Source: an uncultured Mycoplasmatota bacterium
GTDB lineage: Bacteria > Bacillota_I > Bacilli_A > RF39 > UBA660
Length of the DNA stretch: 36,724 nucleotides
NCBI GenBank assembly: GCA_947365915.1
Contig: CANAXT010000010.1
Span: forward strand, 1 to 36,724
Reading direction: 5' to 3'
Shown: piece after piece, positions 1 to 34,164 of the stretch
How positions within the stretch are numbered: the stretch's first letter is position 1
Layout: the number at the start of each line of letters is the position of its first letter
Position numbers and translations under genes: made by a program
Notes under the pieces: model-generated
Database searches by the model: none
Told to the model about the DNA's origin: nothing
What the model saw: the letters and a program-made list of their open reading frames with translations, nothing else

Positions 1-562
1 CCAATTTATTTTCATTTAATATTTTATAAGCTTCATATAAAATATAGTTAAAATCTATCATTCTATTTTTTAATAATTCAGAATAATAATCATTTACATA
101 ATCCCTATATCTTATTTCCTTTATTTGACCAGAAATATCAAAAGTATAATCAATATAATAATCATTTTCTAAATTATATTTATCAAATAATTTATCTTTT
201 ATTTTTCTTGAATCATCTTCACCTATTATTGAAAAAGGTTTAGATAATACTTTAGAAAATCTACTATATTTTCTAATAATAAAATCCAAGCAAAATTTAT
301 GAATAGTTCCTATCCAAATATTATCAGGTATAAAACCAACCTGTTTTAAAATTCTATCCTGCATTTCATCTGCACCTCTATTTGTATAGGTAATAGCAAT
401 TATATTCCTTACATCATTTTCGTCAAATTCATAAAGAATCTTATTAGTAAGTGTCCGTGTTTTTCCACTTCCTGGAATTGCAACTAATAAAATATTACCA
501 TCTGCTGTTATTGCATCAAATTGTCTATCGCTCAATTTTTGAAGAAATTTTTTATTTTTCAT
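1..562 (-). CDS. gajB: GajB-like UvrD/Rep-family DNA helicase, N-terminal part (runs off window)
   Basis: This reading frame is missing from the ORF track because it is cut by the window edge. It starts at an ATG at 562 and stays open for about 187 codons to base 1. It begins with a Q-motif-like stretch (LSDRQFDAI), then a superfamily 1 Walker A (PGSGKT), then motif Ia-like TYTNRGADEM, followed by IGTIHKFC and a DFNYILYEAY segment. This is the usual order in UvrD/Rep helicases. The Walker B and C-terminal helicase motifs lie outside the window. The start overlaps the end of the upstream OLD nuclease gene by 11 nt, so the two are translationally coupled. A short UvrD-like helicase directly behind a class 2 OLD/TOPRIM protein is the gene order of the Gabija anti-phage system, where GajB is thought to sense or unwind DNA termini and to activate GajA. 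The gajB name rests on this context, because only the N-terminus is visible. Confidence 0.82.
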   Translation of the reverse strand, partial: MKNKKFLQKLSDRQFDAITADGNILLVAIPGSGKTRTLTNKILYEFDENDVRNIIAITYTNRGADEMQDRILKQVGFIPDNIWIGTIHKFCLDFIIRKYSRFSKVLSKPFSIIGEDDSRKIKDKLFDKYNLENDYYIDYTFDISGQIKEIRYRDYVNDYYSELLKNRMIDFNYILYEAYKILNENKL

Positions 563-2597
563 TATATAGACCTCTTATATAAAGCATAAAAGTATCAGTT
601 ATTTCATCTTCTTTGAGCCTTTCTTTTTCACAATATAATTTAACAATTTGATTATAGATTTTTTTATTATAGATATCTGAAGGGAAAAAATTTTTAAGTG
701 AATCAATTATGTAGTCTGGAATAATAAATTTTTTTATAGAATCTTTCCCTTGAGATTTTAACCATTCAATAAAGTCTAAAGCAAGCCACCCTTTTCCAAG
801 ATTCTTTGCAACAAGTAGAATTCTTCTAAATTTAATCGTTTTATCTGTATTTTCATGTAATTCTTTTAAAATTCTGTCAACATCTCTAGTGTATATTTTA
901 CGGTCTTTTACATATTTTGCAAATAATTCTATATTATTAGAATATAACTCTATCTCAAAAGTATAATCATTAGTATAAATATTAACAAATTCATTATTTA
1001 AATGAATAAAATTCAATTTGTCTACTCTATTTTTGCTTAACTTTTCTGCTTCACTATTTATTAAATCAAAAGATTTGTCCAAATCAGTTAAAATAGAACA
1101 TTTTTTGCGCAATCTTTCTTTATTAAACAATTTAGACATCTTTTCAAAAAAACAATTGTCCATAGAAATCAAGCTTATACCATAAGCATTTAAATCAAAT
1201 CCGTATTTCAATTTTAGTATGTTATCAATAAATATTAACTCTGCATCTCCTTCAACTAGCATCACACTTTTAGAGAATAAAATTGGAGATCTAACAGAAT
1301 CTAAATATCGTTCTAGATATCTAATTTCATCTTCTTTCAATTGATTTGAAGGAGAATATATTTCACAACTTTTTTCACCTTTTTTTCCCAAAACAATCAT
1401 TGAAGATATATTACATGATTCTGATATATGCACCGAGTGCGTTGATAACATTATTTGGGTATTCAAAGTTTTCCCAATACCACTAAAAAAAGTCTGTTGT
1501 AAATGTTTATGTAAATGAGATTCTGGCTCTTCAATTATCAGTAAATTAAATAATCTTTTAGTATGGCCCATAAAATAATTATTTTGAAGCATTTTTAATG
1601 CAAAATATATAATATTATTTTCACCCAAACTTTTGTTATATAAATCTATTAAATGATTTTCCACTTTTCCCTTTAAAGTAAAATATTTTATAATTTTATT
1701 TTTGTCTTCTGGCACAGAAACATCTAGAAACATATCTCCAGAAAAAGATGAACCTACTGTGTTATTCATCATTCCAAAAATCTCATCTGTTAGTTTGGTA
1801 AACTCTTCTATATTTTTTAACTGGTCATTTATTGTATTAAAATTTTGTTTTATCGTGCTCCATTTTGTTTCGTCAATATTTTCAGATATTGATCCCAGCA
1901 TCTTTTCAAAAAAATTTCCATCCTTTATCAATTCAGAATTAACATCACGAATTGCAGGAATAAATGTAACATTTATAAACTTAGTCAATTCAAAGTCATC
2001 TTTGTCACCAATTTGAGTTGAGTCTTCTTGAACATCATCAGGGCTTGGAAAAATATAATTATCAAAATCCCCAATGATTTTTTTGTAAGTTTCATCATCT
2101 ATAAAGTCAAAAATAGTACCAACAGTCCTCTTTACCTCGTAATCATTTCTTATATCTATGTTATTTATAAATTCTTCTAATTGCATTTTTTTTAAAATTT
2201 TTTCTTCTGCATCTTCTATTTCTAAATATTCTTTTGATAAAGTATATAAATTATTTCTTACAATTCTATTTGGTCTAAAAATTAAAGTATAAATAGCTTC
2301 GTTTTCTTCATTTGCATTAAAACTAACAGCTTCTGGAATTTCTTCAGAATTAGGAATATCTTTAAAATATACGCTAATAATTATCCAATGACCATTCGGT
2401 TTATCTAACTCATATGAAAAATCATTTTCTTCTAAAAAATGTCTATTATTTCTATCTAATAATTGTCTAAGTGCATAAAATAAATTTGTTTTTCCAGTTC
2501 CATTTTCACCTATAATTGTTATTACATCGCTTTCTAAATTAATAGAACATTTATAAAAATTTTTATAGTTTCTTATTTTTAATTTACTAATATACAT
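552..2597 (-). CDS. gajA: GajA-like OLD-family ATPase/TOPRIM endonuclease (Gabija defence)
   Basis: A 681-aa protein with an ABC/SMC-type ATPase followed by a TOPRIM nuclease domain, the class 2 OLD arrangement. Visible motifs are Walker A GENGTGKTN (residues 30-38), a signature-like SLGENN (about 323-328), Walker B IIEEPESH (354-361), the switch STHS (385-388), the TOPRIM glutamate in LVEGDAE (448-454) and the TOPRIM DxD in TDLDKS (504-509). Known GajA is a DNA endonuclease held inactive by nucleotides and released during phage infection; it assembles with GajB. This protein is roughly 100 residues longer than the reference GajA as I recall it, with the excess probably in the inserted coiled region (about 100-330) or the C-terminus. 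The next gene is a UvrD-like helicase overlapping by 11 nt, which supports Gabija over a solitary OLD nuclease or a PARIS AriA. The start at 2597 is the first ATG and fits the conserved ISKLKIRNYKNF opening. All catalytic motifs are intact, so it is probably functional. Confidence 0.88.
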   Translation of the reverse strand: MYISKLKIRNYKNFYKCSINLESDVITIIGENGTGKTNLFYALRQLLDRNNRHFLEENDFSYELDKPNGHWIIISVYFKDIPNSEEIPEAVSFNANEENEAIYTLIFRPNRIVRNNLYTLSKEYLEIEDAEEKILKKMQLEEFINNIDIRNDYEVKRTVGTIFDFIDDETYKKIIGDFDNYIFPSPDDVQEDSTQIGDKDDFELTKFINVTFIPAIRDVNSELIKDGNFFEKMLGSISENIDETKWSTIKQNFNTINDQLKNIEEFTKLTDEIFGMMNNTVGSSFSGDMFLDVSVPEDKNKIIKYFTLKGKVENHLIDLYNKSLGENNIIYFALKMLQNNYFMGHTKRLFNLLIIEEPESHLHKHLQQTFFSGIGKTLNTQIMLSTHSVHISESCNISSMIVLGKKGEKSCEIYSPSNQLKEDEIRYLERYLDSVRSPILFSKSVMLVEGDAELIFIDNILKLKYGFDLNAYGISLISMDNCFFEKMSKLFNKERLRKKCSILTDLDKSFDLINSEAEKLSKNRVDKLNFIHLNNEFVNIYTNDYTFEIELYSNNIELFAKYVKDRKIYTRDVDRILKELHENTDKTIKFRRILLVAKNLGKGWLALDFIEWLKSQGKDSIKKFIIPDYIIDSLKNFFPSDIYNKKIYNQIVKLYCEKERLKEDEITDTFMLYIRGLYNEK

Positions 2598-2619
2598 AAT
2601 ACTTCACTTCCAAACAAAA

Positions 2620-2647
2620 AAGTATATTTAACTTTATAAATATACTT
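2620..2647. promoter_or_regulatory. Perfect 10-bp inverted repeat upstream of gajA
   Basis: AAGTATATTT is followed by an 8-nt spacer and then its exact reverse complement AAATATACTT, 23 nt upstream of the gajA start. A TATAAT-like -10 (complement of 2657-2662) lies just upstream, so the repeat would sit at the transcription start or in the 5' leader. It could be an operator for a dimeric repressor or a leader hairpin. No good -35 is visible and no regulator is encoded next to it, so the function is inferred from position only. Confidence 0.4.
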
Positions 2648-2850
2648 ATTATCGATATTATATCATTTTTTTCAACATTAGAAAATAACTAGTAAATATT
2701 TTTTAGCTTTAATTGTTATACATTCGTTACACAATGATCATCGCCTCCTGAAGACAGCATGTAATTAATATATTTCATTTTACAATCAACCATTACTAAC
2801 AAAAATATTCACCAAACACAAAAAATTACAAACTAGTAAATCTCCCACAT

Positions 2851-3591
2851 CTAATAATCACTATAATTAACCGCATTAATCTTCTCACCATTTCTAGCAA
2901 TATCATAAAGCATTAAACACCTTGAAAAATTACTACTACTAGTATACTTATGATGCTTTATAAAATCTTTCAACCACTTATTATTTCCATTAAAAATACA
3001 AGGAAGTCCAGTACCAAACCATATTCCATCATAAACAATAATACGATTATAAATATATAATTCACGTCCCTCATTCAATTTACCAAGACTACTCATCGAA
3101 ATATCAATTATTTTATACTTCTTCTTTGTAAAAACATCCTGATAAGTCACATACCCATTTACATTATCATAACCTATTACTTTAAATAATCCAACAATCG
3201 AATCATTCATAGCATAAAACATTTTTACCTTTTCCTGTGACTTAAATTTCTTCTTCTGAATATATATTTCAGTTAAAGACGGAAACTTATTATGAGTTTT
3301 ATACATAAATAACTCGTTAAAAATCACCGCGTCATTGAGTTCTTGATTATCTAAAAATATCTCTAAACCTTTCGTTTCTCTTCGTACATCAAAAACAATA
3401 CGATCAAAATATTCATCAATAGGTAACTTACCACTATCAATATAGTTCACCATAATCTCTAACACACTAGAATGTATTTTCCGAGCTCTATAATACTTTT
3501 TTATATGATCTTTACGATTCAAAAATAAATTTCTATTTAAATTCACTATAAAATTAATTGCCTCTTCCTGACTATCAAAAAAATTACCCAT
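2851..3591 (-). CDS. Uncharacterised 246-aa protein, last gene of the SWIM/pRiA4b operon
   Basis: I do not recognise a family. The protein is soluble, with no signal peptide or membrane segment, and rich in Lys, Tyr, Asn and Phe. The N-terminal half looks helical. The C-terminal half has an alternating beta-like segment with FKVIGYDNVNGYVTY and ends in a compact region carrying GIWFGTGLPC. The pattern of a short beta-barrel-like stretch (roughly residues 125-190) could be a small nucleic-acid or ligand-binding fold, but this is speculation. It starts 12 nt after the stop of the pRiA4b ORF-3-like gene on the same strand, so it is almost certainly co-transcribed with the three genes upstream. 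It is followed by about 250 bp before gajA with no obvious terminator, so read-through into the Gabija genes is possible. Confidence 0.7.
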   Translation of the reverse strand: MGNFFDSQEEAINFIVNLNRNLFLNRKDHIKKYYRARKIHSSVLEIMVNYIDSGKLPIDEYFDRIVFDVRRETKGLEIFLDNQELNDAVIFNELFMYKTHNKFPSLTEIYIQKKKFKSQEKVKMFYAMNDSIVGLFKVIGYDNVNGYVTYQDVFTKKKYKIIDISMSSLGKLNEGRELYIYNRIIVYDGIWFGTGLPCIFNGNNKWLKDFIKHHKYTSSSNFSRCLMLYDIARNGEKINAVNYSDY

Positions 3592-3603
3592 ATTCCCATC
3601 TAC

Positions 3604-4200
3604 TTATCCTTTGACCTCATAGCCATTCTTAATTTCTAAAACTAATCCTTTTAAATTTTTATTATTTGTTTTTATATTAAACTTACGATAATCATATTTT
3701 TCACACTTCTCATATCCAGGCGTAACATAATGATCAGAATACCCCTTTTCATCAATATCATCAACAATTGCCTTTAACTGAAAATCACTAATATCATCAA
3801 GCATTCCACGTCCCGCTCCATCAACAATATATGGATAAAGATGTCCATCATATTCACCCATATCTCGAGAACCCAAATAAGTAATTTTAAAAGTCGTAGT
3901 AGAACCCATATCATAATCCATTTCCATAACATCATTCTCTGTTAAACCAATACTTCCCAATGTCGTTACTACTGCGTTCACAGGTGGAATTTTACTATGA
4001 TTATCCTCAATACAAACCCAACAATCATAAACCTTACCATGAAACTTTATATGATACAAATGATACGCAAGAGAATCAAACGTTGCAAGTATCGTATACG
4101 CCAAATCAGCAACCGTTCTCCGATCTGTAATTTCAATTACCCTCCATATTTTATCCTCTAATCCTTCAATTCCAACTCTAAAAGTCAATACTTTAGCCAT
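3604..4200 (-). CDS. Plasmid pRiA4b ORF-3-like family protein
   Basis: A protein of about 198 aa that matches the plasmid pRiA4b ORF-3-like family by recognisable features. It opens with a short beta strand (VLTFRVGIEG), continues with the typical KIWRVIEI and TVADLAYTILATF motif, and carries the later MDYDMGSTTTFKITY segment with its conserved YDMGS.W/F-like core. Members often sit in mobile or plasmid DNA and their biochemical role is unknown. The ORF track starts at 4215, but the AGGAGG-like site overlaps that first ATG; the ATG at 4200 (MAKVLTF) has the site at correct spacing, so I start there. The gene is the third in an operon with DUF6429 and a SWIM protein (53-68 nt behind the SWIM stop) and is followed 12 nt later by the 246-aa unknown gene. 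No enzymatic residues can be assigned. Confidence 0.8.
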   Translation of the reverse strand: MAKVLTFRVGIEGLEDKIWRVIEITDRRTVADLAYTILATFDSLAYHLYHIKFHGKVYDCWVCIEDNHSKIPPVNAVVTTLGSIGLTENDVMEMDYDMGSTTTFKITYLGSRDMGEYDGHLYPYIVDGAGRGMLDDISDFQLKAIVDDIDEKGYSDHYVTPGYEKCEKYDYRKFNIKTNNKNLKGLVLEIKNGYEVKG

Positions 4201-4268
4201 TGATAACACCTCCATTTTAATCTCATTTATTTCCTGGCTTTCTAATATTCACATACAATAAATTCAAT

Positions 4269-5921
4269 TTATAATCCCCTCAACTCATCCTGCATTGCAG
4301 GCCGATTCCGATATTGCAAACGAATTTCTGACAATAACTTCTCATATAAAACCTTACTATGTTTCATCTCCTTAATATGTCTCAAATCCGAAGCCAACTT
4401 TCTATATAAATTTCTATTATTCGCTACCTTCGCAAACTCCCTACAACGATCCAAATAAATCCCAATCAGTTCCTGATTATATTTCGGTAACAAATACGTT
4501 TCATAACGAACAATAACATCCATTTCTTTATCTTTTACAACAGAATAAATATCATCATACATTTTTTCCTCAATATAAATATTCAAAATATGATAAAAAT
4601 ATATATCTTTCTCTTTTAACACCTTATCAATAATCTTCTGCCTTTCCACTAACCATTCCTTACGAGAATAAAGCTTCTTAATTTTTTTATAAACTTCAAT
4701 ATTATACTTACTCAAATCATATAATAACTGATATAAAATCTGTTTATATTCTTCCATCATATTCAACTCAAAATAAATATCACTTAACTTAAAAGCATAA
4801 CGAGCATCATTAACAGAACCCGTTTCTTCCAAACGATCCTTCAATAACTGAATTGCTTTATCTCCATCTTTTATCCTCATATATTCATCCACTAACCTAA
4901 AACAAACATCATAATCAAACGAATATTCCTCTAACAATTCCAAAATCTTTTCCTGATGATTTCCTATATCATATATAGAAACCAAATAATCAACATAATA
5001 CTTTCTATGCCAACAATACTCATCATTTTTACGCATCTTTAAAAGATGAACCAAATGTTGTTCAATTTTTTCTAAATACACCTTACCATCAATATAATAA
5101 CGAAATAACTCATATAGTTCAATTCCATAATTAGATAAATAATCTGTCATCGTCTCATGAAAAATATATTGTAAAATATCAAGCGACAATTTCTCATCTT
5201 TCTCTAACACCTGATCTAAAATACGTTCGATTATTTGAATACAACTATCCGCAACATCACCAGTAGAACCATCCGAATCATCAATATCCGTATTTGGAAT
5301 CGTCTCTAATATACTAGTAGCAACATCAAAAGCAAGCTCATAATGATCATGACTAACAAGCGCCTCCACTTCCTCAGTAATTTGAGACATCGCATTCACA
5401 TAATCCCAAGCTTCCTGATAATCAATAAAACCATCCCTACCACCACTAGACCGAATCGCATCATATATTTTCTTTCGATACTGAGCGAGTGTTAAAACAG
5501 GAAACAAATGATGAAACTTTAACCGAAATTGATCATAAATATGCTCATCACTCTCTAATAACTTCACTAAAAAATCTTCTAAATCCTGCTTATCAATCTG
5601 TCTCAAAATACCACGAATCTCCTGTTTTTTACTTTGATAAATACCAGAGCATTCTTCAATATCATGCTCTTCTAAATAATATAATAAAGCCGCTATATGT
5701 TTACAATAAAGTCCTTCACTCGCATACGGACAACTACAACCAGCTTCCATTAAATCATGATCTTCAAGATAAACAAAAACCTGATAAACACTTGTCCCAC
5801 TAACTTTAGCTACAATGACATCTCCTTCTTCATGAACATTTTCTACCAACCCTTGTTTATAATATTCATACCCTCTAGAAAGTATCTTTTCTTCAAATTC
5901 ATCTTTATAATTAATTCTCAT
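4269..5921 (-). CDS. SWIM zinc-finger domain protein with helical-repeat C-terminus
   Basis: A 550-aa protein with a SWIM zinc finger near the N-terminus. The ligands are C62-x-C64, C73 and H75 in CSCPYASEGLYCKH, exactly the CxCx(n)CxH pattern. SWIM fingers bind DNA or protein. The N-terminal residues 1-50 (an FEEKILSRGYEYYKQGLV motif) are the usual lead-in of bacterial SWIM proteins. The remaining 450 residues are almost all alpha-helical and Tyr/Leu/Glu-rich, resembling TPR- or HEAT-like repeats, a likely protein-binding scaffold. There is no helicase domain, so this is not the SNF2-SWIM type. The start overlaps the stop of the DUF6429 gene by 11 nt, showing tight coupling. Function is unknown; the combination with DUF6429 and pRiA4b ORF-3 suggests a joint accessory function. 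Confidence 0.85.
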   Translation of the reverse strand: MRINYKDEFEEKILSRGYEYYKQGLVENVHEEGDVIVAKVSGTSVYQVFVYLEDHDLMEAGCSCPYASEGLYCKHIAALLYYLEEHDIEECSGIYQSKKQEIRGILRQIDKQDLEDFLVKLLESDEHIYDQFRLKFHHLFPVLTLAQYRKKIYDAIRSSGGRDGFIDYQEAWDYVNAMSQITEEVEALVSHDHYELAFDVATSILETIPNTDIDDSDGSTGDVADSCIQIIERILDQVLEKDEKLSLDILQYIFHETMTDYLSNYGIELYELFRYYIDGKVYLEKIEQHLVHLLKMRKNDEYCWHRKYYVDYLVSIYDIGNHQEKILELLEEYSFDYDVCFRLVDEYMRIKDGDKAIQLLKDRLEETGSVNDARYAFKLSDIYFELNMMEEYKQILYQLLYDLSKYNIEVYKKIKKLYSRKEWLVERQKIIDKVLKEKDIYFYHILNIYIEEKMYDDIYSVVKDKEMDVIVRYETYLLPKYNQELIGIYLDRCREFAKVANNRNLYRKLASDLRHIKEMKHSKVLYEKLLSEIRLQYRNRPAMQDELRGL

Positions 5922-16272: not shown

Positions 16273-17169
16273 CTATCCCTCACTTATCTGACAAGTATAC
16301 CCTGCAATATTGAAATATTCTGTAACCAATTCTAATGTATCTGTTTTTCGAACATCATTAAACGCGTGCAATACATCATCACCTTCATTTTCTTTATATT
16401 CATATGAAATTTTTGAAAAATCTGCTTTTGTATAATCTGTTTTCACAGTAAACACATGCTTGTCCCCTGACGGCACATATTTTGTAGTAAACCCTTTTAC
16501 TTTTCCAAGTTTGTTGATCCATTCCTGATAATATTCTGCTACATATGGAAGATCAGTTTGTCCAGTTGCATCAATTGCTGATATCGTCCGAATTGTTTCA
16601 TCACTTAAAACGCCTTTTCCAACTTGATAACGAACTTTAATGCTATCTACAGTACGAATTCCACTATCATCATAAGTTTTTCTGCAAGAAAAGTTCTTAA
16701 ACTGTAATTTGGGACTACCACCATTATTTCCGCTTCCTCCATTGTTTCCAGAGCTTCCGTTTCCGCTTCCTCCATTGTTTCCAGAGCTTCCGTTTCCACT
16801 TCCTCCATTGTTTCCAGAGCCTCCATTTCCGCTTCCTCCATTGTTTCCAGAGCTTCCGTTTCCACTTCCTCCATTATTTCCAGAGCTTCCGTTTCCACTT
16901 CCTCCATTATTTCCAGAGCTTCCATTTCCGCTTCCTCCATTGTTTCCAGAGTTTCCATTTCCACTTCCTCCATTATTTCCAGAGCTTCCGTTTCCACTTC
17001 CTCCATTAGAGTTTCCGTTGTTATTTTCACCATTTTGATTGGAATTATTATTTGGATTATTTGAATTTTTTCCTTTATTCATAAAGACAAGAACCATCGC
17101 TACAATTGCAATAATCACAACTACCAATACAGAAATCAAAATAATCTTTGTTTTCTTGCTTTTATCCAT
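16273..17169 (-). CDS. Membrane-anchored protein with Gly/Ser/Asn repeat linker
   Basis: A 298-aa protein with a short basic N-terminus, one membrane helix (about residues 8-30), an Asn-rich hinge, eight copies of an 11-residue GSGNGSSGNNG unit (roughly residues 56-145) and a C-terminal extracytoplasmic domain bounded by cysteines (FSCRK and YTCQ). The repeat looks like a flexible stalk that lifts the domain away from the membrane. The domain is a paralogue of that in the downstream gene, which lacks the stalk. The start has an AAGGAGGATATC SD. The two long shadow ORFs over the repeat (one on each strand) are artefacts of a 33-nt unit without stops. The family is unknown; an envelope-associated function is inferred from topology. 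Confidence 0.8.
   Translation of the reverse strand: MDKSKKTKIILISVLVVVIIAIVAMVLVFMNKGKNSNNPNNNSNQNGENNNGNSNGGSGNGSSGNNGGSGNGNSGNNGGSGNGSSGNNGGSGNGSSGNNGGSGNGSSGNNGGSGNGGSGNNGGSGNGSSGNNGGSGNGSSGNNGGSGNNGGSPKLQFKNFSCRKTYDDSGIRTVDSIKVRYQVGKGVLSDETIRTISAIDATGQTDLPYVAEYYQEWINKLGKVKGFTTKYVPSGDKHVFTVKTDYTKADFSKISYEYKENEGDDVLHAFNDVRKTDTLELVTEYFNIAGYTCQISEG
16741..17004. repeat. 33-bp tandem repeat, eight copies, inside the Gly/Ser/Asn linker
   Basis: Eight consecutive 33-bp units start with ATTGTTTCCAGAG or ATTATTTCCAGAG, with a few synonymous or single-residue variants between copies; a partial ninth unit precedes at 16723-16740. The unit is in frame, so unit gain or loss would change the stalk length by 11 residues without breaking the gene. 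Confidence 0.95.
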
Positions 17170-26673: not shown

Positions 26674-27870
26674 CTATTTTCTCTTTGGATAATAGATATT
26701 AATATCAACTGGTCCTTCTACTCCATCAACCTTTCCATTACTCGTTAATTGCCAAAAATCATACGTTCCTTCATAACTAGTCTGGCTTGTATAATGAGCA
26801 AGCCAAACATGATCAAAAGGTTCCCAAATAGATTCCAAATAAGCTTTACTACTATAAAGCATACCTTGATATGAAGAATCCTCCACTGTCTTTATAAAAC
26901 TAGAAGCCATACGATTCAACTCATAAAAACTCAAATGATAATAATTAAAATAATGCCATTCTTCCCAATCAAAAACAATAGGTAACTCAATATTATAACC
27001 TTTAATCTGTTTTAACACCCACAAAGCCTCCTTTTTCGCATCAAAAACATTTTCTGCATAAGAATAAAAATAAACACCAACAGGAATATCATATTTTTTA
27101 GCCAATTCCATATTACGTTTGAACTTCTGATCTAAAAAAAACTTTCCTTTTCCACTCTTACTTCCAACTCGCAAAATAACAAATTCCACACCAGTATTTT
27201 TTAATTTTTCAAAATCGACATCTCCTTGATGACTAGAAAGATCAATACCAATTTTCGTATTTTCATTTTTGTAGTTTTTAACATACTCTAAAAAATCAAT
27301 CCTTGTATCTTCCATCTCTTCTTCCTTATCCTCAATAACAGGTTCATAAACGTTCAAAATAAACTTTTGCTCACTTTCATTTCCACTTGAATCAATTGCC
27401 TTAAATGTAAGTGGATATTCTCCTGGTGTATGAATATCATAACTTCCTTCTACAAAACACTTCGGTGAAGGATCAGAATTATCTCCACAAAGAATCACTT
27501 TAGTGAAATCAATATCACTATCCTTTTTCACCCGATATTGACTTCCTAACCAAATCAAAGGCTTCATTGTATCTACCACTTCCACAAAAAATTGATACTG
27601 AACCTTAATATGATCATCATTAGTATAAACAAAAGAAATCTCTTTTTTCCCCAACTGATCAAATAAAACTTCCTGATCCTTCATCTGGTCTCCATTCATT
27701 TTTACAATAAAATCTGAAATTCTCCTTTGTTCCCCAAATTCCACAGTCAAATCATCCACTAAAGTAACCTCTACTTTCGCATTTTTCACACGAATATATT
27801 GATATAATTTCACAAAACCAACCACAAACACAATACAACAAATAACAATTAAACAAACTTTCTTCTTCAT
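26674..27870 (-). CDS. GH25 lysozyme with N-terminal Ig-like domain, membrane-anchored
   Basis: A 398-aa protein with an N-terminal membrane helix or uncleaved signal (residues 4-22), two Ig-like beta domains of the HYR/DUF5011 kind (about 30-185, with GEYPLTFKAIDSSGNESEQ) and a GH25 muramidase domain (about 205-398). GH25 motifs are GIDLSSHQGDVDF, VILRVG, GVYFYSYA, IVFDWEEW (catalytic acids in DWE), WLAHYTS and FWQLTSNGKVDGVEG ending in DINIYY. It cleaves the MurNAc-GlcNAc bond of peptidoglycan from the outer face of the membrane. It is likely a cell-wall remodelling enzyme. It lies upstream of the CmpB-type gene by 28 nt and may be co-transcribed. Confidence 0.93.
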   Translation of the reverse strand: MKKKVCLIVICCIVFVVGFVKLYQYIRVKNAKVEVTLVDDLTVEFGEQRRISDFIVKMNGDQMKDQEVLFDQLGKKEISFVYTNDDHIKVQYQFFVEVVDTMKPLIWLGSQYRVKKDSDIDFTKVILCGDNSDPSPKCFVEGSYDIHTPGEYPLTFKAIDSSGNESEQKFILNVYEPVIEDKEEEMEDTRIDFLEYVKNYKNENTKIGIDLSSHQGDVDFEKLKNTGVEFVILRVGSKSGKGKFFLDQKFKRNMELAKKYDIPVGVYFYSYAENVFDAKKEALWVLKQIKGYNIELPIVFDWEEWHYFNYYHLSFYELNRMASSFIKTVEDSSYQGMLYSSKAYLESIWEPFDHVWLAHYTSQTSYEGTYDFWQLTSNGKVDGVEGPVDINIYYPKRK

Positions 27871-27964: not shown

Positions 27965-28603
27965 ATGAAAGAGAAAAAAAGATATGTAAAAGCATATAGA
28001 AACTTATTAAAAAGTTACTTCGCAATCTTTTTATTATCCATCGCATTATTTTTGGTAATTATTAAAGTATTAGATGGTTTTGTAGAAGGAGATGTCGGAA
28101 AACTTATTACAGATTTGAGTGCTGTAATCATTGGAATACTAACAAGCTTACTATTTTATTCATTTTTAAGTGTTTCCAGAAACAGCAAAAATTATGTAGA
28201 TGACATTGACCAAAATAATCAAATATTAAAAAAAGGATTAAACGATTTAGGTTTAATCTCAAATATGATTGTATTCAACGTAGAAAGTAAAAAAAGTGAA
28301 TTAGAAATATTAACTTTATACAAAGACATCCAAATCAACAGAAACTTATTAATCAATAATAACTTATTTGATAGTATTTCATTAGTAGGAATCAACTCTC
28401 TATACGATAATCTATCATCAAGTTTACTCAAAATATCTACAAAAAAAGAATTTATCGATGAAAGTATTAACCTACTTTCAACCATTGACAATATTACCAA
28501 AATGATTGAAGAAGTCATAATGACAAATGATGATGAAAAAGATGCATTTTTAAAAGAAAAAGAACGCTTAGATAACCTTTTTAATGATAGAAAAAAATCT
28601 TAA
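27965..28603 (+). CDS. Two-TM membrane protein with coiled-coil tail
   Basis: A 212-aa protein with a basic N-terminus, two membrane helices (about residues 18-38 and 45-68) and a long soluble C-terminus rich in Leu, Asn, Lys and Glu that looks coiled-coil. No family is recognised. It is divergent from the lysozyme gene. A TACAAT -10-like box lies at about 27932. The leader carries a GGAGG site in front of a four-codon ORF (ATG at 27954, MGVL) whose TGA overlaps this gene's ATG, so translation may be coupled. A terminator follows directly. Confidence 0.75.
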   Translation: MKEKKRYVKAYRNLLKSYFAIFLLSIALFLVIIKVLDGFVEGDVGKLITDLSAVIIGILTSLLFYSFLSVSRNSKNYVDDIDQNNQILKKGLNDLGLISNMIVFNVESKKSELEILTLYKDIQINRNLLINNNLFDSISLVGINSLYDNLSSSLLKISTKKEFIDESINLLSTIDNITKMIEEVIMTNDDEKDAFLKEKERLDNLFNDRKKS

Positions 28604-28877: not shown

Positions 28878-29910
28878 TTAGCTTAATTTTTCAGCAATCT
28901 CATTAATTTTATTAATAGATTTTAAATACTCTTTTTCAATTGAAGTTAGTTCTTTTATTTGATACTTACCATATTCTAATTTTGCTTTTTCTATAGCTTC
29001 TTTATGACTAACCTTACCAGCATTCATCAAAATATTAGCATCTAAAGAATCTAGTATTTTGTCTAATTGCTTAATATAATCTTTCATCCTCATCGGTTTA
29101 TGTTTCATGGCTTGAAATTCAGCAAAATCAAAATATCCTGAAACTAAATTGTTTAACATCAAAAGTTCTTATTCAGTTAAATAGTTTTTAGCAATTTCTA
29201 TATCATTAATGCATGGCAACTCTCCCTTAAAATTAGTAAGTCCCATAAAAGGTTTATTTGCATCAGCACGATTATAAATAACCTCTGCAGCAGTGTTTCC
29301 ATGTGTCGCAAAATGGAATTTGTTCTGTACAATTTTAAAGAATCTTATAGTTTCTTCAGCATTAGGATTATAATCAATTTGCAGTTGCATACAACTCAAG
29401 AACTTGTCTATATAATACTTTTTCACTTGATCGGATATCTTTAATGCGGTTGATTAGTTCATAAAAGTATTTTCCACCTCCAAGATTTTTAAGACGTTCA
29501 TCATCTATAGTATACCCTTTAATAATATATTCCTTAATTCTTGCAGTTGCCCACTTCCTAAATCTTACACCTTCTAAAGATTTAACACGGTATCCCACAC
29601 TAATTATTACATCCAAATTGTAGTAATCAACTAAATGGGTTTGACTTTTACCATCTATCGCACCATGTTTAGTGGTTGTTGCAAATTTTGCAACAACCTC
29701 ATTTCTTTCTAGTTCATCTTCTTCAAAAATATTTTTAATGTGTCTAGAAATTACAGATTTATCCCTTCCAAATAATCTTGCCATTTGTACCAAAGATAAC
29801 CAAACTGTTTCTCCTTCTAAATTTACATCTAGTTTAATATTCCCATTTGTTGACTCATAAATAATCAATTCTGTTTTATTTTCTTTTATCAATTCATTTT
29901 TCATTTTCAA
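28878..29910 (-). pseudogene. rhuM-like (RhuM family) gene, broken by a frameshift and a stop
   Basis: Three track ORFs (29374-29910, 29169-29426 and 28878-29162) are one RhuM gene. The N-terminal part has the typical VWLSLVQMARLFGRDKSVISRHIKNIF helix-turn-helix-like start and FRKWATARIKEYI, the middle HFATHGNTAAEVIYNRADA, and the end FAEFQAMKHKPMRMKDYI. The frame is lost at one extra A near 29386 (ATAN then stop, where ATAID would continue), and a TAA replaces a Glu codon near 29169 (LTE-stop-ELLMLN). Everything else is well preserved, so the decay is recent. RhuM was named in Salmonella virulence islands and is common in mobile DNA; its function is unclear. An AAGGAG-like SD precedes the ATG at 29910. 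Confidence 0.88.
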
Positions 29911-30225
29911 TCACTCCTTCTATACTCATTAATTTTTAAATTCTCATACACCGACTTTATTCATTATTCACTATTTTCTAAAAAACAATTAAAGTATAAT
30001 ATATTCACAACAGATAATAAGCACAATATTTTTGTGGAAAATAAATTACTTACTATTTATAAAGATCGTCTATCTAACACACAAACACATTCCACATGAC
30101 TAGAATGTATATCATGAACAATTGAAATCTACATAATTGTTTACAACTGACTATGTCATAATATACATACATATTAGGTGCAATGTTTAATATGAATATA
30201 TAGTAGTTATCAATTATAGTATATA
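29911..30225. other. Intergenic stretch holding the att-like copy of the rlmD 3' end
   Basis: This 315-bp stretch has no gene. It contains a plausible minus-strand promoter region for the rhuM remnant (a TATTAT/TATACT-rich segment near 29992-30002) and the rlmD-like duplicate at 30067-30098, listed separately. I see no tRNA or riboswitch. Confidence 0.5.
30067..30098. repeat. Second copy of the rlmD 3' end (att-like direct repeat, outer copy)
   Basis: The 32 bp starting GTCTATCTAACACACAAAC match 31240-31271 with one mismatch. Read on the minus strand it encodes HVECVCVLDR, close to the HVECVCVLNR end of RlmD. A TATTTATAA tract flanks both copies, so the similarity extends slightly further. 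The two copies enclose only the ORF6N gene. Confidence 0.8.
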
Positions 30226-31101
30226 CTACTTTCTAATTTCATCTAAAACGTCATTTAAAATTTTGCTACTTTCTATTTTATTAATGGCAAAACACTTCTT
30301 TCCTAAATCTTTAAAACTACTACCACAATGATATATGTCTTTGTTGTCTATAATAATAAATCTATCATGAAATTTATTATCATAGACTAATTCAACATTA
30401 TTATATTGACTTTTATATTTTTTGATTAATGTTTCATTCATATTCGCAGAATAAATTATTATATTAACATTTATTACTTTTAAAATATCTAACAATTCTT
30501 TGCCAGCATAATTATCAATAATAATTATTTCTTTTTTTGAACTTTTTAAAATATCTAAAAGTAAAGAATAAGCATCATAAATTTGTCCATCAAAGAATAT
30601 CGCATTGCTTTTTTCTTTTTCTTGTAATTTATCAAAAGAATCTTTTAGTAACTTTATTTCTTCATCATGCTTATAAACTAAATTATTTATAAAACTTTGA
30701 TTTACCATTGTACTTGAAATAAATTTTCTCATAGAAACAAAAGCATCAATGATTTGAACATTTACTTTGGCAGCAACAGCACTTTTAAGAAGTCCAGATA
30801 ACATCATTATTCCTTGCTCAGTTAAAACATATGGTAAATATCTTATTCCACCATGTACTATTTCATTCCTTAAACTTGAGGTCACAAATTGTGATCTCAA
30901 GTTTATTACTTCTTCCATAGTTAGTTGAAAACAAAATGATTCAGGAAATCTCATAATATTTCTTTTAATCGTTTGATTTATAATTCTTGTTTCTGTTTTA
31001 TATAACTTTGCAACATCTGATGAGAAAATAACTTGCTTTCCTCTTATTTCAAAAATCATATCTTCAATTTTTATATTTTCTTTTACTAATAATTTATTCA
31101 T
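30226..31101 (-). CDS. ORF6N domain protein with PLD-like C-terminus
   Basis: A 291-aa protein. Residues about 10-105 are an ORF6N domain (IRGKQVIFSSDVAKLYKTET, then NIMRFPESFCFQLT and RYLPYVLTEQGIMMLSGLL), a phage antirepressor-type DNA-binding module. Residues about 165-290 resemble a phospholipase D-like domain, with SSKKEIIIIDNY and HDRFIIID (HxK/R-type core), then YHCGSSFKDLGKKCFAI. Such ORF6N-PLD fusions are common in gut Firmicute islands and their role is unknown. The single HKD-type motif suggests a dimeric site or a non-catalytic fold. The gene lies alone between two copies of the rlmD 3' end, so it is the cargo of a small integrated element. Confidence 0.85.
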   Translation of the reverse strand: MNKLLVKENIKIEDMIFEIRGKQVIFSSDVAKLYKTETRIINQTIKRNIMRFPESFCFQLTMEEVINLRSQFVTSSLRNEIVHGGIRYLPYVLTEQGIMMLSGLLKSAVAAKVNVQIIDAFVSMRKFISSTMVNQSFINNLVYKHDEEIKLLKDSFDKLQEKEKSNAIFFDGQIYDAYSLLLDILKSSKKEIIIIDNYAGKELLDILKVINVNIIIYSANMNETLIKKYKSQYNNVELVYDNKFHDRFIIIDNKDIYHCGSSFKDLGKKCFAINKIESSKILNDVLDEIRK

Positions 31102-31234
31102 AATCTAAACCCTCCATTTATAATTTTAATTATACACCCATACCAGTTAAGATAATATGACGAAACATATTCTCCACAAACAATCTCTATAATTTTTTTG
31201 ATCCTTACTAGATTTCCCTTTTATTTATAAGAAC

Positions 31235-32461
31235 TTACTGTCTATTTAACACACAAACACATTCCACATGATACGTATGAGAAAACATATCTACGGGAAT
31301 AATAGTCTTAACCTCATACTGCGTTTCCAAATACTTTAAATCCCGAGACATCGTAGCAGGGTCACATGAAACATAGATAATTTTAGGAGCATTAATTTTC
31401 TTTAACTCATGAATCGCTAAACTATCCAAACCTGCTCTTGGAGGATCCACAATTACCGCATCTGGATCAAACAAAGTTTTCTTTAAAATCGTTCCAGTAT
31501 CTCCACACAAAAACTCTATATTAGAAATCCCATTTCGTTCTTTATTCCACATAGCATCAAAAACAGCTTCCTCATAAATCTCAATACCAAGTACCTCTTG
31601 AACATTTTTACTAACCACAATTCCAATTGTCCCCGTTCCACAATAAAGATCCAATACCTTTTCACTCCCACTAAAATCACAACACTGGATAACAGTCTGA
31701 TATAATTTCTCCATCCCACTTTTATTAACCTGAAAAAATGAACTTGGTGAAACCTTAAAAACAAAATCAAAAATCTGTTCCGTTAAAAAGTCATTACCTG
31801 AAATCACCTCATACTCATATCCACGCTTTACCAAAACTGAAACACCATCAAAACATTCTAAAGGAATTTGTGTTACCAAAAACGAAGAAGAAACATCAAA
31901 CACCACCAACATATCACAAGAACTTTCTCTTATCATAACCTCTTTCACATATGACAAATCCATCTTACTTTTAATCAATGATAACATCAAGTTCATCTTT
32001 TTAGAAAGCAATAAACAACCATTCACTTCTACAATTTGATTGCTTTTCTTCTGATAAAAACCAATTCTTTGATCAACTTGAAAAATAACCTTATTACGAT
32101 ACCCAAAAGGCTGATCATTTGGAACAACCGATTGAACAACTCCATCAAGTCCAGCAAACTTCTTCACAAGCTCACAAACCTTTTTCTTCTTGTACTCTAA
32201 TTGTTTCTGATAATTGAAATGTAATAAATCACAACCACCACACTCCAAAAAATAAGGACAAGGACTTTCTATCCGATCTTCACTTACAGAAAAAAATCGA
32301 ACCACTCTAGCTTCCATCCACTTTTTCTTTTCCTTTAAAATCTCTACTTCTACCACTTCTTCAGGCAAAGCATTCCAAACAAAAATCACCTTACCATCAA
32401 CATGAGCAATTCCTCTTCCTTGATGATCCATCGTTTCAATCGTCACTACAATCTTCCTCAT
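31235..32461 (-). CDS. 23S rRNA uracil-5-methyltransferase (RlmD/RlmCD, RumA family)
   Basis: A 408-aa TrmA/RumA-family methyltransferase. It has an N-terminal TRAM domain (VTIETMDHQGRGIAHVDGKV), a Cys-rich cluster (CPYFLECGGCDLLHF, a likely 4Fe-4S site with an upstream Cys) and a C-terminal SAM domain with DLYCGTGTIG, VDPPRAGL and the catalytic VSCDPATMSRDL. It methylates uridines of 23S rRNA; whether it acts at one or two sites (RlmCD) cannot be read from the sequence. The C-terminus HVECVCVLNRQ is complete and forms one half of a direct repeat. It is divergent from gerA. The start has a GTGGGA SD. Confidence 0.95.
   Translation of the reverse strand: MRKIVVTIETMDHQGRGIAHVDGKVIFVWNALPEEVVEVEILKEKKKWMEARVVRFFSVSEDRIESPCPYFLECGGCDLLHFNYQKQLEYKKKKVCELVKKFAGLDGVVQSVVPNDQPFGYRNKVIFQVDQRIGFYQKKSNQIVEVNGCLLLSKKMNLMLSLIKSKMDLSYVKEVMIRESSCDMLVVFDVSSSFLVTQIPLECFDGVSVLVKRGYEYEVISGNDFLTEQIFDFVFKVSPSSFFQVNKSGMEKLYQTVIQCCDFSGSEKVLDLYCGTGTIGIVVSKNVQEVLGIEIYEEAVFDAMWNKERNGISNIEFLCGDTGTILKKTLFDPDAVIVDPPRAGLDSLAIHELKKINAPKIIYVSCDPATMSRDLKYLETQYEVKTIIPVDMFSHTYHVECVCVLNRQ
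31240..31271. repeat. rlmD 3'-end att-like direct repeat, inner copy
   Basis: This 32-bp segment is the natural 3' end of the rlmD gene and matches 30067-30098 with one mismatch. The rum/rumA 3' end is a known insertion site of integrative elements in streptococci, where the duplicated core also lies on the HVECV codons. No integrase gene is in the enclosed segment. Confidence 0.75.
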
Positions 32462-32688: not shown

Positions 32689-34164
32689 ATGAAAAAAATC
32701 GAAAAAGACGCAAAAAAAAATATAGAAACCATAAAACTAGCTTGTGGAAATAGTCCAGATTTCGCAACTAGAAATATCAAAATTGGAAACAAACAAATAT
32801 CATATGTATACTTTGAAAGTGTAAGTAGTGATGATAAAATCAGTGACTTCATTATGAAAAGTATTACAAACGATGTCAAAGAAGCCAAAACAACAACCTT
32901 TTTCACAAACCTTTTTACAAGACTAGAAAATACTATTCCCAATAGTAAGCTAACCACTGCAGATGACTTTGATAGCATATTCTATTACCTATCCTCTGGA
33001 TTTACCTGTATTTTTGTAGACGGAAGCAAAATAGCCATCATCCTAGAAACAAGAACTGTGCTTGATAGAGGAGTCACAGAATCTTCCTCTGAACCAGTGA
33101 TAAGAGGACCAAAAGATAGCTTTACAGAAAACCACAACATGAATCTAGGACTCATCCGAAAACGGATTAAAGATCCAAACCTCTGGTTTCGAGAACTGAA
33201 GATAGGAAGACGAAGCAAAACCAAAGTAGCAATCGCTTATATTAAAGATATAGCAGAATTAAAACGCGTTCACAAAATTGAACAAATGCTGAAAAATATT
33301 GATATTGACGCCATTTTAGATAGTGGATACATTCGAAAATTCTTAGAAGGAAAACAGCATTCCACCTTTCCACAAATCATCACAACCGAGAAACCAGACA
33401 TGGTTTGTGGAGAACTATTAGATGGAAAAATCGCAATCATTGTGGAAAACACCCCATTCGTATTAGTCATGCCAGCAACACTCGTAAACTTCTTACACGC
33501 CCCTACAGACTACTATGAAAAAGCATCAAACGTCACTTTTTCTAGAATATTAAGAACACTAGCTTTTTTCATCACCATCATTACCCCTGCCCTATATATC
33601 GCTCTTACAACATTCAACCACGAACTCATTCCAGACGAATTTCTAATATCCATCGCCATGCAACAACAAGGCGTCCCCTTTCCAACCGTATTAGAAATTC
33701 TCCTATTTGGAATTACCTTTGAAGTATTAAGAGAAAGTGACCTAAGGGCCCCAAGCGCAGCTGGAACCGCCATGAGTATCGTTGGTGCCTTAGTATTAGG
33801 AGACGCAGCAGTTGCAGCTGGTGTCGTTTCCCCCATTGTTGTAATTATTGTCGCAGTCACATCCATATGTGAAATGGCATTCTCAGATATTGATATGATC
33901 AACGCCTTAAGAAGCTGGAAAATCATATTCATATTTACTTCCATGTTTATGGGACTCATTGGTTTCTTAGTTGCAATGCTAATCTTAATCATCAAACTCG
34001 TAAGTCTAGAGACTCTAGATGTTCCATACCTAATTCCATTTAGTCCGTTTGATTTTAATGCATGGAAAGACACAATCATAAAACTTCCAATCAACAAACT
34101 TACCAAACGTCCAAGATATCTAACAGACAAAAATAGAACAAGATTAAAGGAGGACAACAAATGA
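32689..34164 (+). CDS. Spore germinant receptor subunit A (GerA/GerKA family)
   Basis: A 491-aa protein of the GerA family. The N-terminal half (about 1-275) is the soluble two-lobe domain, with the conserved VEGELLDGKIAIIVENTPFVLVMPAT-like segment (here CGELLDGKIAIIVENTP). The rest has about five membrane helices, with a conserved TFEVLRESDLRAPSAAGTAMSIVGALVLGDAAVAAGVVSPIVVI region. Subunit A forms the oligomeric germinant-gated channel in the inner spore membrane. Length is typical. The start ATG has a GAGGGA SD, and the stop overlaps gerC by 4 nt (ATGA). The promoter carries a sigma-G-like box. Confidence 0.95.
   Translation: MKKIEKDAKKNIETIKLACGNSPDFATRNIKIGNKQISYVYFESVSSDDKISDFIMKSITNDVKEAKTTTFFTNLFTRLENTIPNSKLTTADDFDSIFYYLSSGFTCIFVDGSKIAIILETRTVLDRGVTESSSEPVIRGPKDSFTENHNMNLGLIRKRIKDPNLWFRELKIGRRSKTKVAIAYIKDIAELKRVHKIEQMLKNIDIDAILDSGYIRKFLEGKQHSTFPQIITTEKPDMVCGELLDGKIAIIVENTPFVLVMPATLVNFLHAPTDYYEKASNVTFSRILRTLAFFITIITPALYIALTTFNHELIPDEFLISIAMQQQGVPFPTVLEILLFGITFEVLRESDLRAPSAAGTAMSIVGALVLGDAAVAAGVVSPIVVIIVAVTSICEMAFSDIDMINALRSWKIIFIFTSMFMGLIGFLVAMLILIIKLVSLETLDVPYLIPFSPFDFNAWKDTIIKLPINKLTKRPRYLTDKNRTRLKEDNK

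Follow-up and report, generated by a model that had tools for sequence, protein, structure and literature searches.

The DNA analysed here (the window) is a 36,724-nucleotide stretch from an uncultured Mycoplasmatota bacterium (contig CANAXT010000010.1 of assembly GCA_947365915.1, genome G000 in our comparisons). It carries an intact rlmD (rumA) gene, the end of which recurs farther along as a 32-bp direct repeat (Table 1). The rlmD-side copy consists of the last RlmD codons (TCATGTGGAATGTGTTTGTGTGTTAAATAGAC, encoding HVECVCVLN), and the outer copy matches it at 31 of 32 positions. This bears out the original prediction of a repeat with one mismatch over the HVECVCVL codons. The two copies form a unique pair: no further copy was found in the window at up to three mismatches, none appeared in 100 dinucleotide shuffles, and in the whole genome the repeat is confined to these two places. 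It had also been considered that the outer copy might belong to a degraded rlmD paralogue. This is ruled out, as the match covers the 32 bp only and no rlmD homology is present upstream of the repeat. A search for a tRNA or known RNA at the insertion site found none.

Table 1. Features of the rlmD region in the window and the evidence on which each assignment is based.
Feature	Position	Strand	Evidence or remark
GH25 lysozyme gene, distal synteny anchor	26674..27870	-	
p212, synteny anchor	27965..28603	+	kept beside site in relatives
RhuM-family gene (PF13310), most likely cargo of second unit	28878..29910	-	three reading frames
Palindrome in RhuM coding sequence	29674..29698	-	
Decayed left end, most likely of second, older unit	29945..30098	-	model R1 weak match, E 0.039
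Conserved right end including outer core	30067..30194	-	right-end HMM E 4.7e-28
att-like core, outer repeat copy	30068..30099	-	
ORF6N cargo gene, 291 aa, PADLOC candidate PDC-S05	30226..31101	-	PF10543 E 5.1e-29; PDLC04869 E 2.9e-91
Palindrome in ORF6N coding sequence	30871..30905	-	
Conserved left end of ORF6N unit	31126..31270	-	model R1, 83.6 bits, E 7e-24; alignment
rlmD (rumA), target gene, intact, 408 aa	31235..32461	-	TIGR00479 equivalog, E 7.8e-97
att-like core, rlmD-side repeat copy	31240..31271	-	
gerA-type spore germination gene, proximal synteny anchor	32689..34164	+	

The repeat copies bound a 1.17-kb unit in which a single ORF6N gene lies between conserved left and right ends; the left end shows an internal deletion of ca. 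55 bp relative to most other copies in the alignment. The earlier description of the interval as holding only an ORF6N/PLD gene is thus correct for the single open reading frame and for its ORF6N domain. The PLD half rests on an HDRFIIID motif in the C-terminal half of the protein, which resembles the phospholipase-D-type HxK motif with R in place of K, and on a sub-threshold match to the VPA1262 family; from these we infer that this half may be PLD-like, and a convincing solved structural relative of it was not found. As had been noted before, the unit encodes no integrase. Structurally it resembles a CIME in having attL- and attR-like flanks while being devoid of integration and transfer genes, and it does not have the serine integrase of its own that marks a rumA-specific ICE or IME.

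Both ends of this unit recur widely in the family. The left end comprises ca. 170-200 bp of DNA after the rlmD stop codon, running from CTTATAAATAAAGGGAAAATCAACTA to CATACCA-N8-TGGTATG, and is common to relatives with RlmD proteins that are only 34-62% identical. By blastn (E ≤ 2e-8), it is present in full or in part in at least 31 of the 291 family genomes; matches with E above 1e-6 were taken as chance unless confirmed by a profile, as was the case for G193. Automatic scoring of the fetched loci placed it at the 3' end of rlmD in 35 genomes, and the copies not scored in this way are array-internal, directly follow a right end or are split by a deletion. By inspection, the rlmD end also adjoins the left end in G105 and L056. 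Its position is always either the 3' end of rlmD or directly behind the right end of another unit, and insertion at rlmD/rumA is a trait that the units share with the rumA-specific serine-integrase ICEs and IMEs. The conserved right end covers ca. 120 bp before the outer core (consensus TTATGACATAGTCAGTT with CAACTATTCATAATG) and was detected in 18 of the 291 genomes by blastn (E ≤ 1e-5) and at further loci by profile. Complete units between the two ends measure ca. 0.9-2.1 kb, and a direct repeat, TCAACTATTCA, is present on both sides of the core.

Outside the family, a sample of 395 class genomes gave one 44-bp match to the left end, which we took as chance; phage and plasmid records gave no match, and the exact pattern was not found in IMG/VR. 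The genomes are metagenome-assembled with contigs that often break within arrays, and several carrier contigs end just after a left end, as expected of repeated units. Nearly all left ends contain an inverted repeat, CATACC-N-GGTATG (within 31125-31194 in the window), that is followed by a TATAAT-like or TTGACTA sequence; it could be an operator, part of a promoter or an accessory site of the recombinase.

What speaks most strongly for a mobile unit with a single target is the contrast between the unit and its host gene. In eight hosts that carry the ORF6N unit at rlmD, its DNA is 81-98% identical compared to amino acid identities of 33-46% for RlmD, and this holds for 28 of 28 pairs. From this difference we conclude that the ORF6N unit has moved horizontally, to one and the same site. 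A scan of GTDB genomes for close ORF6N homologues likewise found 7 of 7 directly downstream of rlmD. Close relatives also include the empty sites that the original prediction had proposed to look for: the same-genus genomes G002 and G005 keep the order gerA-rlmD-p212-GH25 and have no second rlmD end, and their rlmD and p212 genes are separated by ca. 450 bp of unrelated sequence that includes a short reading frame. The duplicated end is therefore not a feature of the empty site. A third genome of the genus, G004, carries a different cassette there. As an aside, RlmD itself diverges unusually fast in this genus, with only 58-61% identity in same-genus relatives vs. ca. 89% amino acid identity to the window for the neighboring gerA (G001, G002, G004 and G005).

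Several loci carry units in tandem (L057, L111, L116 and L048). In L057, rlmD is followed by a kinase unit with both ends and then by a second left end with ORF6N. In G291, the left end at rlmD gives way to ca. 18 kb of mobile DNA of mixed kind, beyond which lie the core of a right end and a second unit that is complete; in G011 and L048, more left-end sequence is found past the right end. The window most likely holds a two-unit array as well. Its RhuM gene, which the original prediction did not mention, lies beyond the outer repeat copy, is broken by one frameshift and one in-frame stop and is preceded by a weak match to the left end, which is why we read it as the cargo of a second, older and decayed unit. 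Intact counterparts for comparison are available both for the second left end (L057 and L111) and for RhuM cassettes that sit at rlmD (L105 and L041). The original prediction had offered a very small mobilisable cargo, a collapsed element or a nested att array as alternatives; two of these hold together, i.e., a very small non-autonomous cargo unit within a nested att array.

The cargo differs from unit to unit. ORF6N genes are found in the window, L048, L054 and the second unit of L057, and RhuM genes in L041, L105 and L123. Other units carry AbiEi/AbiEii (L051 and L107), an AAA_14-DUF4143 ATPase (L109, where the right end was not seen), a cytidylate kinase (first unit of L057), a SAM methyltransferase (L125), a Peptidase_C39-like protein (L121), a GNAT_C protein (L177) or genes without a recognised family (L111 and L119). 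In the PADLOC classification, ORF6N and RhuM both fall into candidate class PDC-S05, the ATPase into PDC-S01 and the AbiE pairs into AbiE, suggesting that the cassettes often carry candidate defense or toxin-antitoxin genes. An integrase was not found in any of the complete small units.

The two genes of the window array each contain a palindrome within the coding sequence that occurs once in the window and lies at a shared relative position (ca. codons 50-83). In most family homologues (L048-L072), the palindrome exceeds what is seen in synonymous-codon shuffles while its letters differ between lineages. The best N-terminal palindrome of 15 distant homologues from several phyla and from phages (L239-L253) again falls at that position; 12 of these 15 palindromes were matched by no more than 3 of 100 shuffles, with L244, L247 and L249 being weak. 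Symmetry that is kept while the letters change is what one would expect of a protein that binds specifically within the gene encoding it, and our simplest guess is a site of self-recognition or autoregulation. We found no published description of this palindrome in the open literature. Among the distant homologues, RhuM has restriction-modification genes as neighbors in two plasmids: it lies between the type I subunits M and S in one from Rhodobacter (L243) and follows a DNA methyltransferase gene in one from Roseomonas (L246).

A candidate for the enzyme that moves the cassettes comes from larger elements with matching ends. In G011, the reading frame of a peptide of 35 residues stops a few bases short of the right end, and a near-identical peptide precedes the right end in G195. 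This peptide is homologous to the C-terminus of a CcrC/XisF-like serine recombinase in the G291 array (PF00239, PF07508 and a zinc ribbon), which is itself broken and separated from the right end by another gene. Remnants of such a recombinase also precede right ends in G288, G176, G312, G259 and the G291 cassette, and in total about seven genomes have the 3' end or a remnant of a serine recombinase, identified via the G291 protein, adjoining the right end. The earlier guess of a serine recombinase acting in trans gains support from these elements. Left ends with ParA/ParB were seen, and in G011 and G176 the ParA gene is located within the left end; a single contig that combines both ends with conjugation genes and an intact recombinase was not found. 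Judging from these fragments, the parental element was probably an rlmD-targeted ICE or a related element with a serine recombinase at its right end. A search of G000 for the cognate recombinase gave no match to its C-terminus and one weak PF07508 match elsewhere in the genome. Since no cognate recombinase was seen there, the window unit is probably idle at present.

Two further loci are related to these elements. G278 (L230, C6) has four serine recombinase-like frames in a row at 326-5652 (511, 496, 189 and 594 aa), the last of which is intact and shares its C-terminus with the remnants at rlmD right ends; it is not followed by a right end, and the locus has no rlmD ends. In related ParA/ParB ICEs of G116 (L191) and G211 (L192), which sit next to secA, a tyrosine integrase lies directly upstream of ParA, so that integration modules and targets seem to be exchangeable within this family of ICEs. 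The tyrosine integrase of G116 and G211 was considered as the cassette integrase and rejected, given that these ICEs sit at secA and do not have the cassette ends. A search for ParA relatives in IMG/VR confirmed none.

We think it likely that the window unit is a non-autonomous, att-flanked, CIME-like cassette that entered the 3' end of rlmD by site-specific insertion, with an older and decayed RhuM cassette beyond it, and that such cassettes are moved in trans or by accretion by an element with an rlmD-specific serine integrase. Each cassette has a left end that restores the C-terminus of RlmD and a right end that closes with a copy of the 3' end of rlmD; between them lie one or two cargo genes. 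The rlmD-specific large serine recombinase of larger elements with the same ends would cut and paste these cassettes, in trans or by accretion in cis, so that new units would enter beside rlmD and older units would decay farther out.

It is improbable, though worth serious consideration, that the cassettes are instead moved in trans by a tyrosine integrase. The long shared direct repeat and the restored rlmD 3' end are familiar from many tyrosine-integrase elements, the related ParA ICEs at secA have such an enzyme beside ParA, and TCAACTATTCA flanks the core on both sides in the manner of arm sites; these flanks and the repeat length of 32-38 bp would fit a tyrosine integrase as well. However, in about seven genomes it is a serine recombinase gene that ends by the right end, and no tyrosine integrase was seen adjoining a unit. 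We give still less credit to a static relic, i.e., a site hit once by an element that then collapsed and left the repeat as a mere scar. The shortened left end of the window unit, the decay of its neighbor and the result of the recombinase search in G000 are all in line with this idea, which is possible for the window copy. For the family as a whole it is unlikely, as copies of the ORF6N unit in several hosts exceed 90% identity although the RlmD proteins of these hosts are very different, so that units of this type must have moved recently. Spread by homologous recombination through the conserved ends after DNA uptake, with no site-specific step at all, is very hard to credit even though these ends are long enough to serve as homology, because hosts with an empty site hold no end copy to recombine with and array growth with core duplication is expected from site-specific insertion. 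Homologous recombination through shared ends could nevertheless account for part of the movement.

The rlmD cassettes are a variant of an already known kind of system. CIMEs keep attL and attR, have lost their integration and transfer genes and form tandems by accretion (PMC5704250). The rlmD units are likewise flanked by attL- and attR-like sites, devoid of integration and transfer genes and arranged in tandem, and newcomers would enter beside the target gene as in ICE/IME accretion (PMC5704250). They differ in being reduced to one or two genes with standard ends that add up to ca. 300 bp, and in that one unit recurs across many genera within a single uncultured family. Streptococcal ICEs and IMEs at rumA use a single serine integrase, have repeats of 2-21 bp and carry their att site inside the integrase gene (PMC4701971); rumA is also the target of CTn5 in C. 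difficile (PMC4320837). These elements share with ours the rlmD/rumA target, the exchange of the 3' part of the gene and, probably, the use of a serine recombinase. The streptococcal parallel drawn in the original prediction therefore holds for the target and fails for the repeat length, the restoration of the 3' end and the placement of the recombinase (PMC4701971), since the rlmD units have a repeat of 32-38 bp and restore the 3' end of the gene, and the recombinase gene of the larger elements ends just before the right end. Islands at the tmRNA gene ssrA of Dehalococcoides lie in tandem, involve a Ccr-like serine recombinase and in many cases have no integration module (PMC3146451). They resemble the rlmD arrays in their tandem position at the 3' end of one gene, their direct repeats, the Ccr-like recombinase and the frequent lack of an integration module, but differ in their target, their larger size and their cargo of reductive dehalogenase operons.

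Integrons are similar in forming arrays of single genes that each have a recombination site, with the newest gene beside the anchor. Unlike integrons, rlmD arrays do not involve an IntI-type tyrosine integrase (neither the window nor the complete units showed an integrase gene adjoining rlmD), and they are anchored at rlmD instead of at the gene for an integrase. A bolder view, which we put forward only tentatively and consider rather doubtful as a whole, is that of an integron-like system at rlmD in which single-gene cassettes rich in candidate defense and toxin-antitoxin genes would enter in order through the serine integrase of larger elements, with the commonest cargo, ORF6N and RhuM, being self-addressed through the palindromes within their N-terminal codons.

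Apart from this region, the window also encodes a protein (16273-17169) in which a long Gly/Asn/Ser-rich repeat of GSGNGSSGNNG units separates a membrane anchor from a C-terminal domain.

The rlmD cassettes suggest that single candidate defense genes can travel without a mobility gene of their own, across genera and to one predictable site, and they offer a simple case for how non-autonomous units may depend on serine-integrase elements. Their study also led us to the intragenic palindrome of ORF6N and RhuM genes. Conserved ends make further cassettes easy to find, and rlmD could thus serve to trap novel systems of a single gene across a large group of uncultured gut bacteria.
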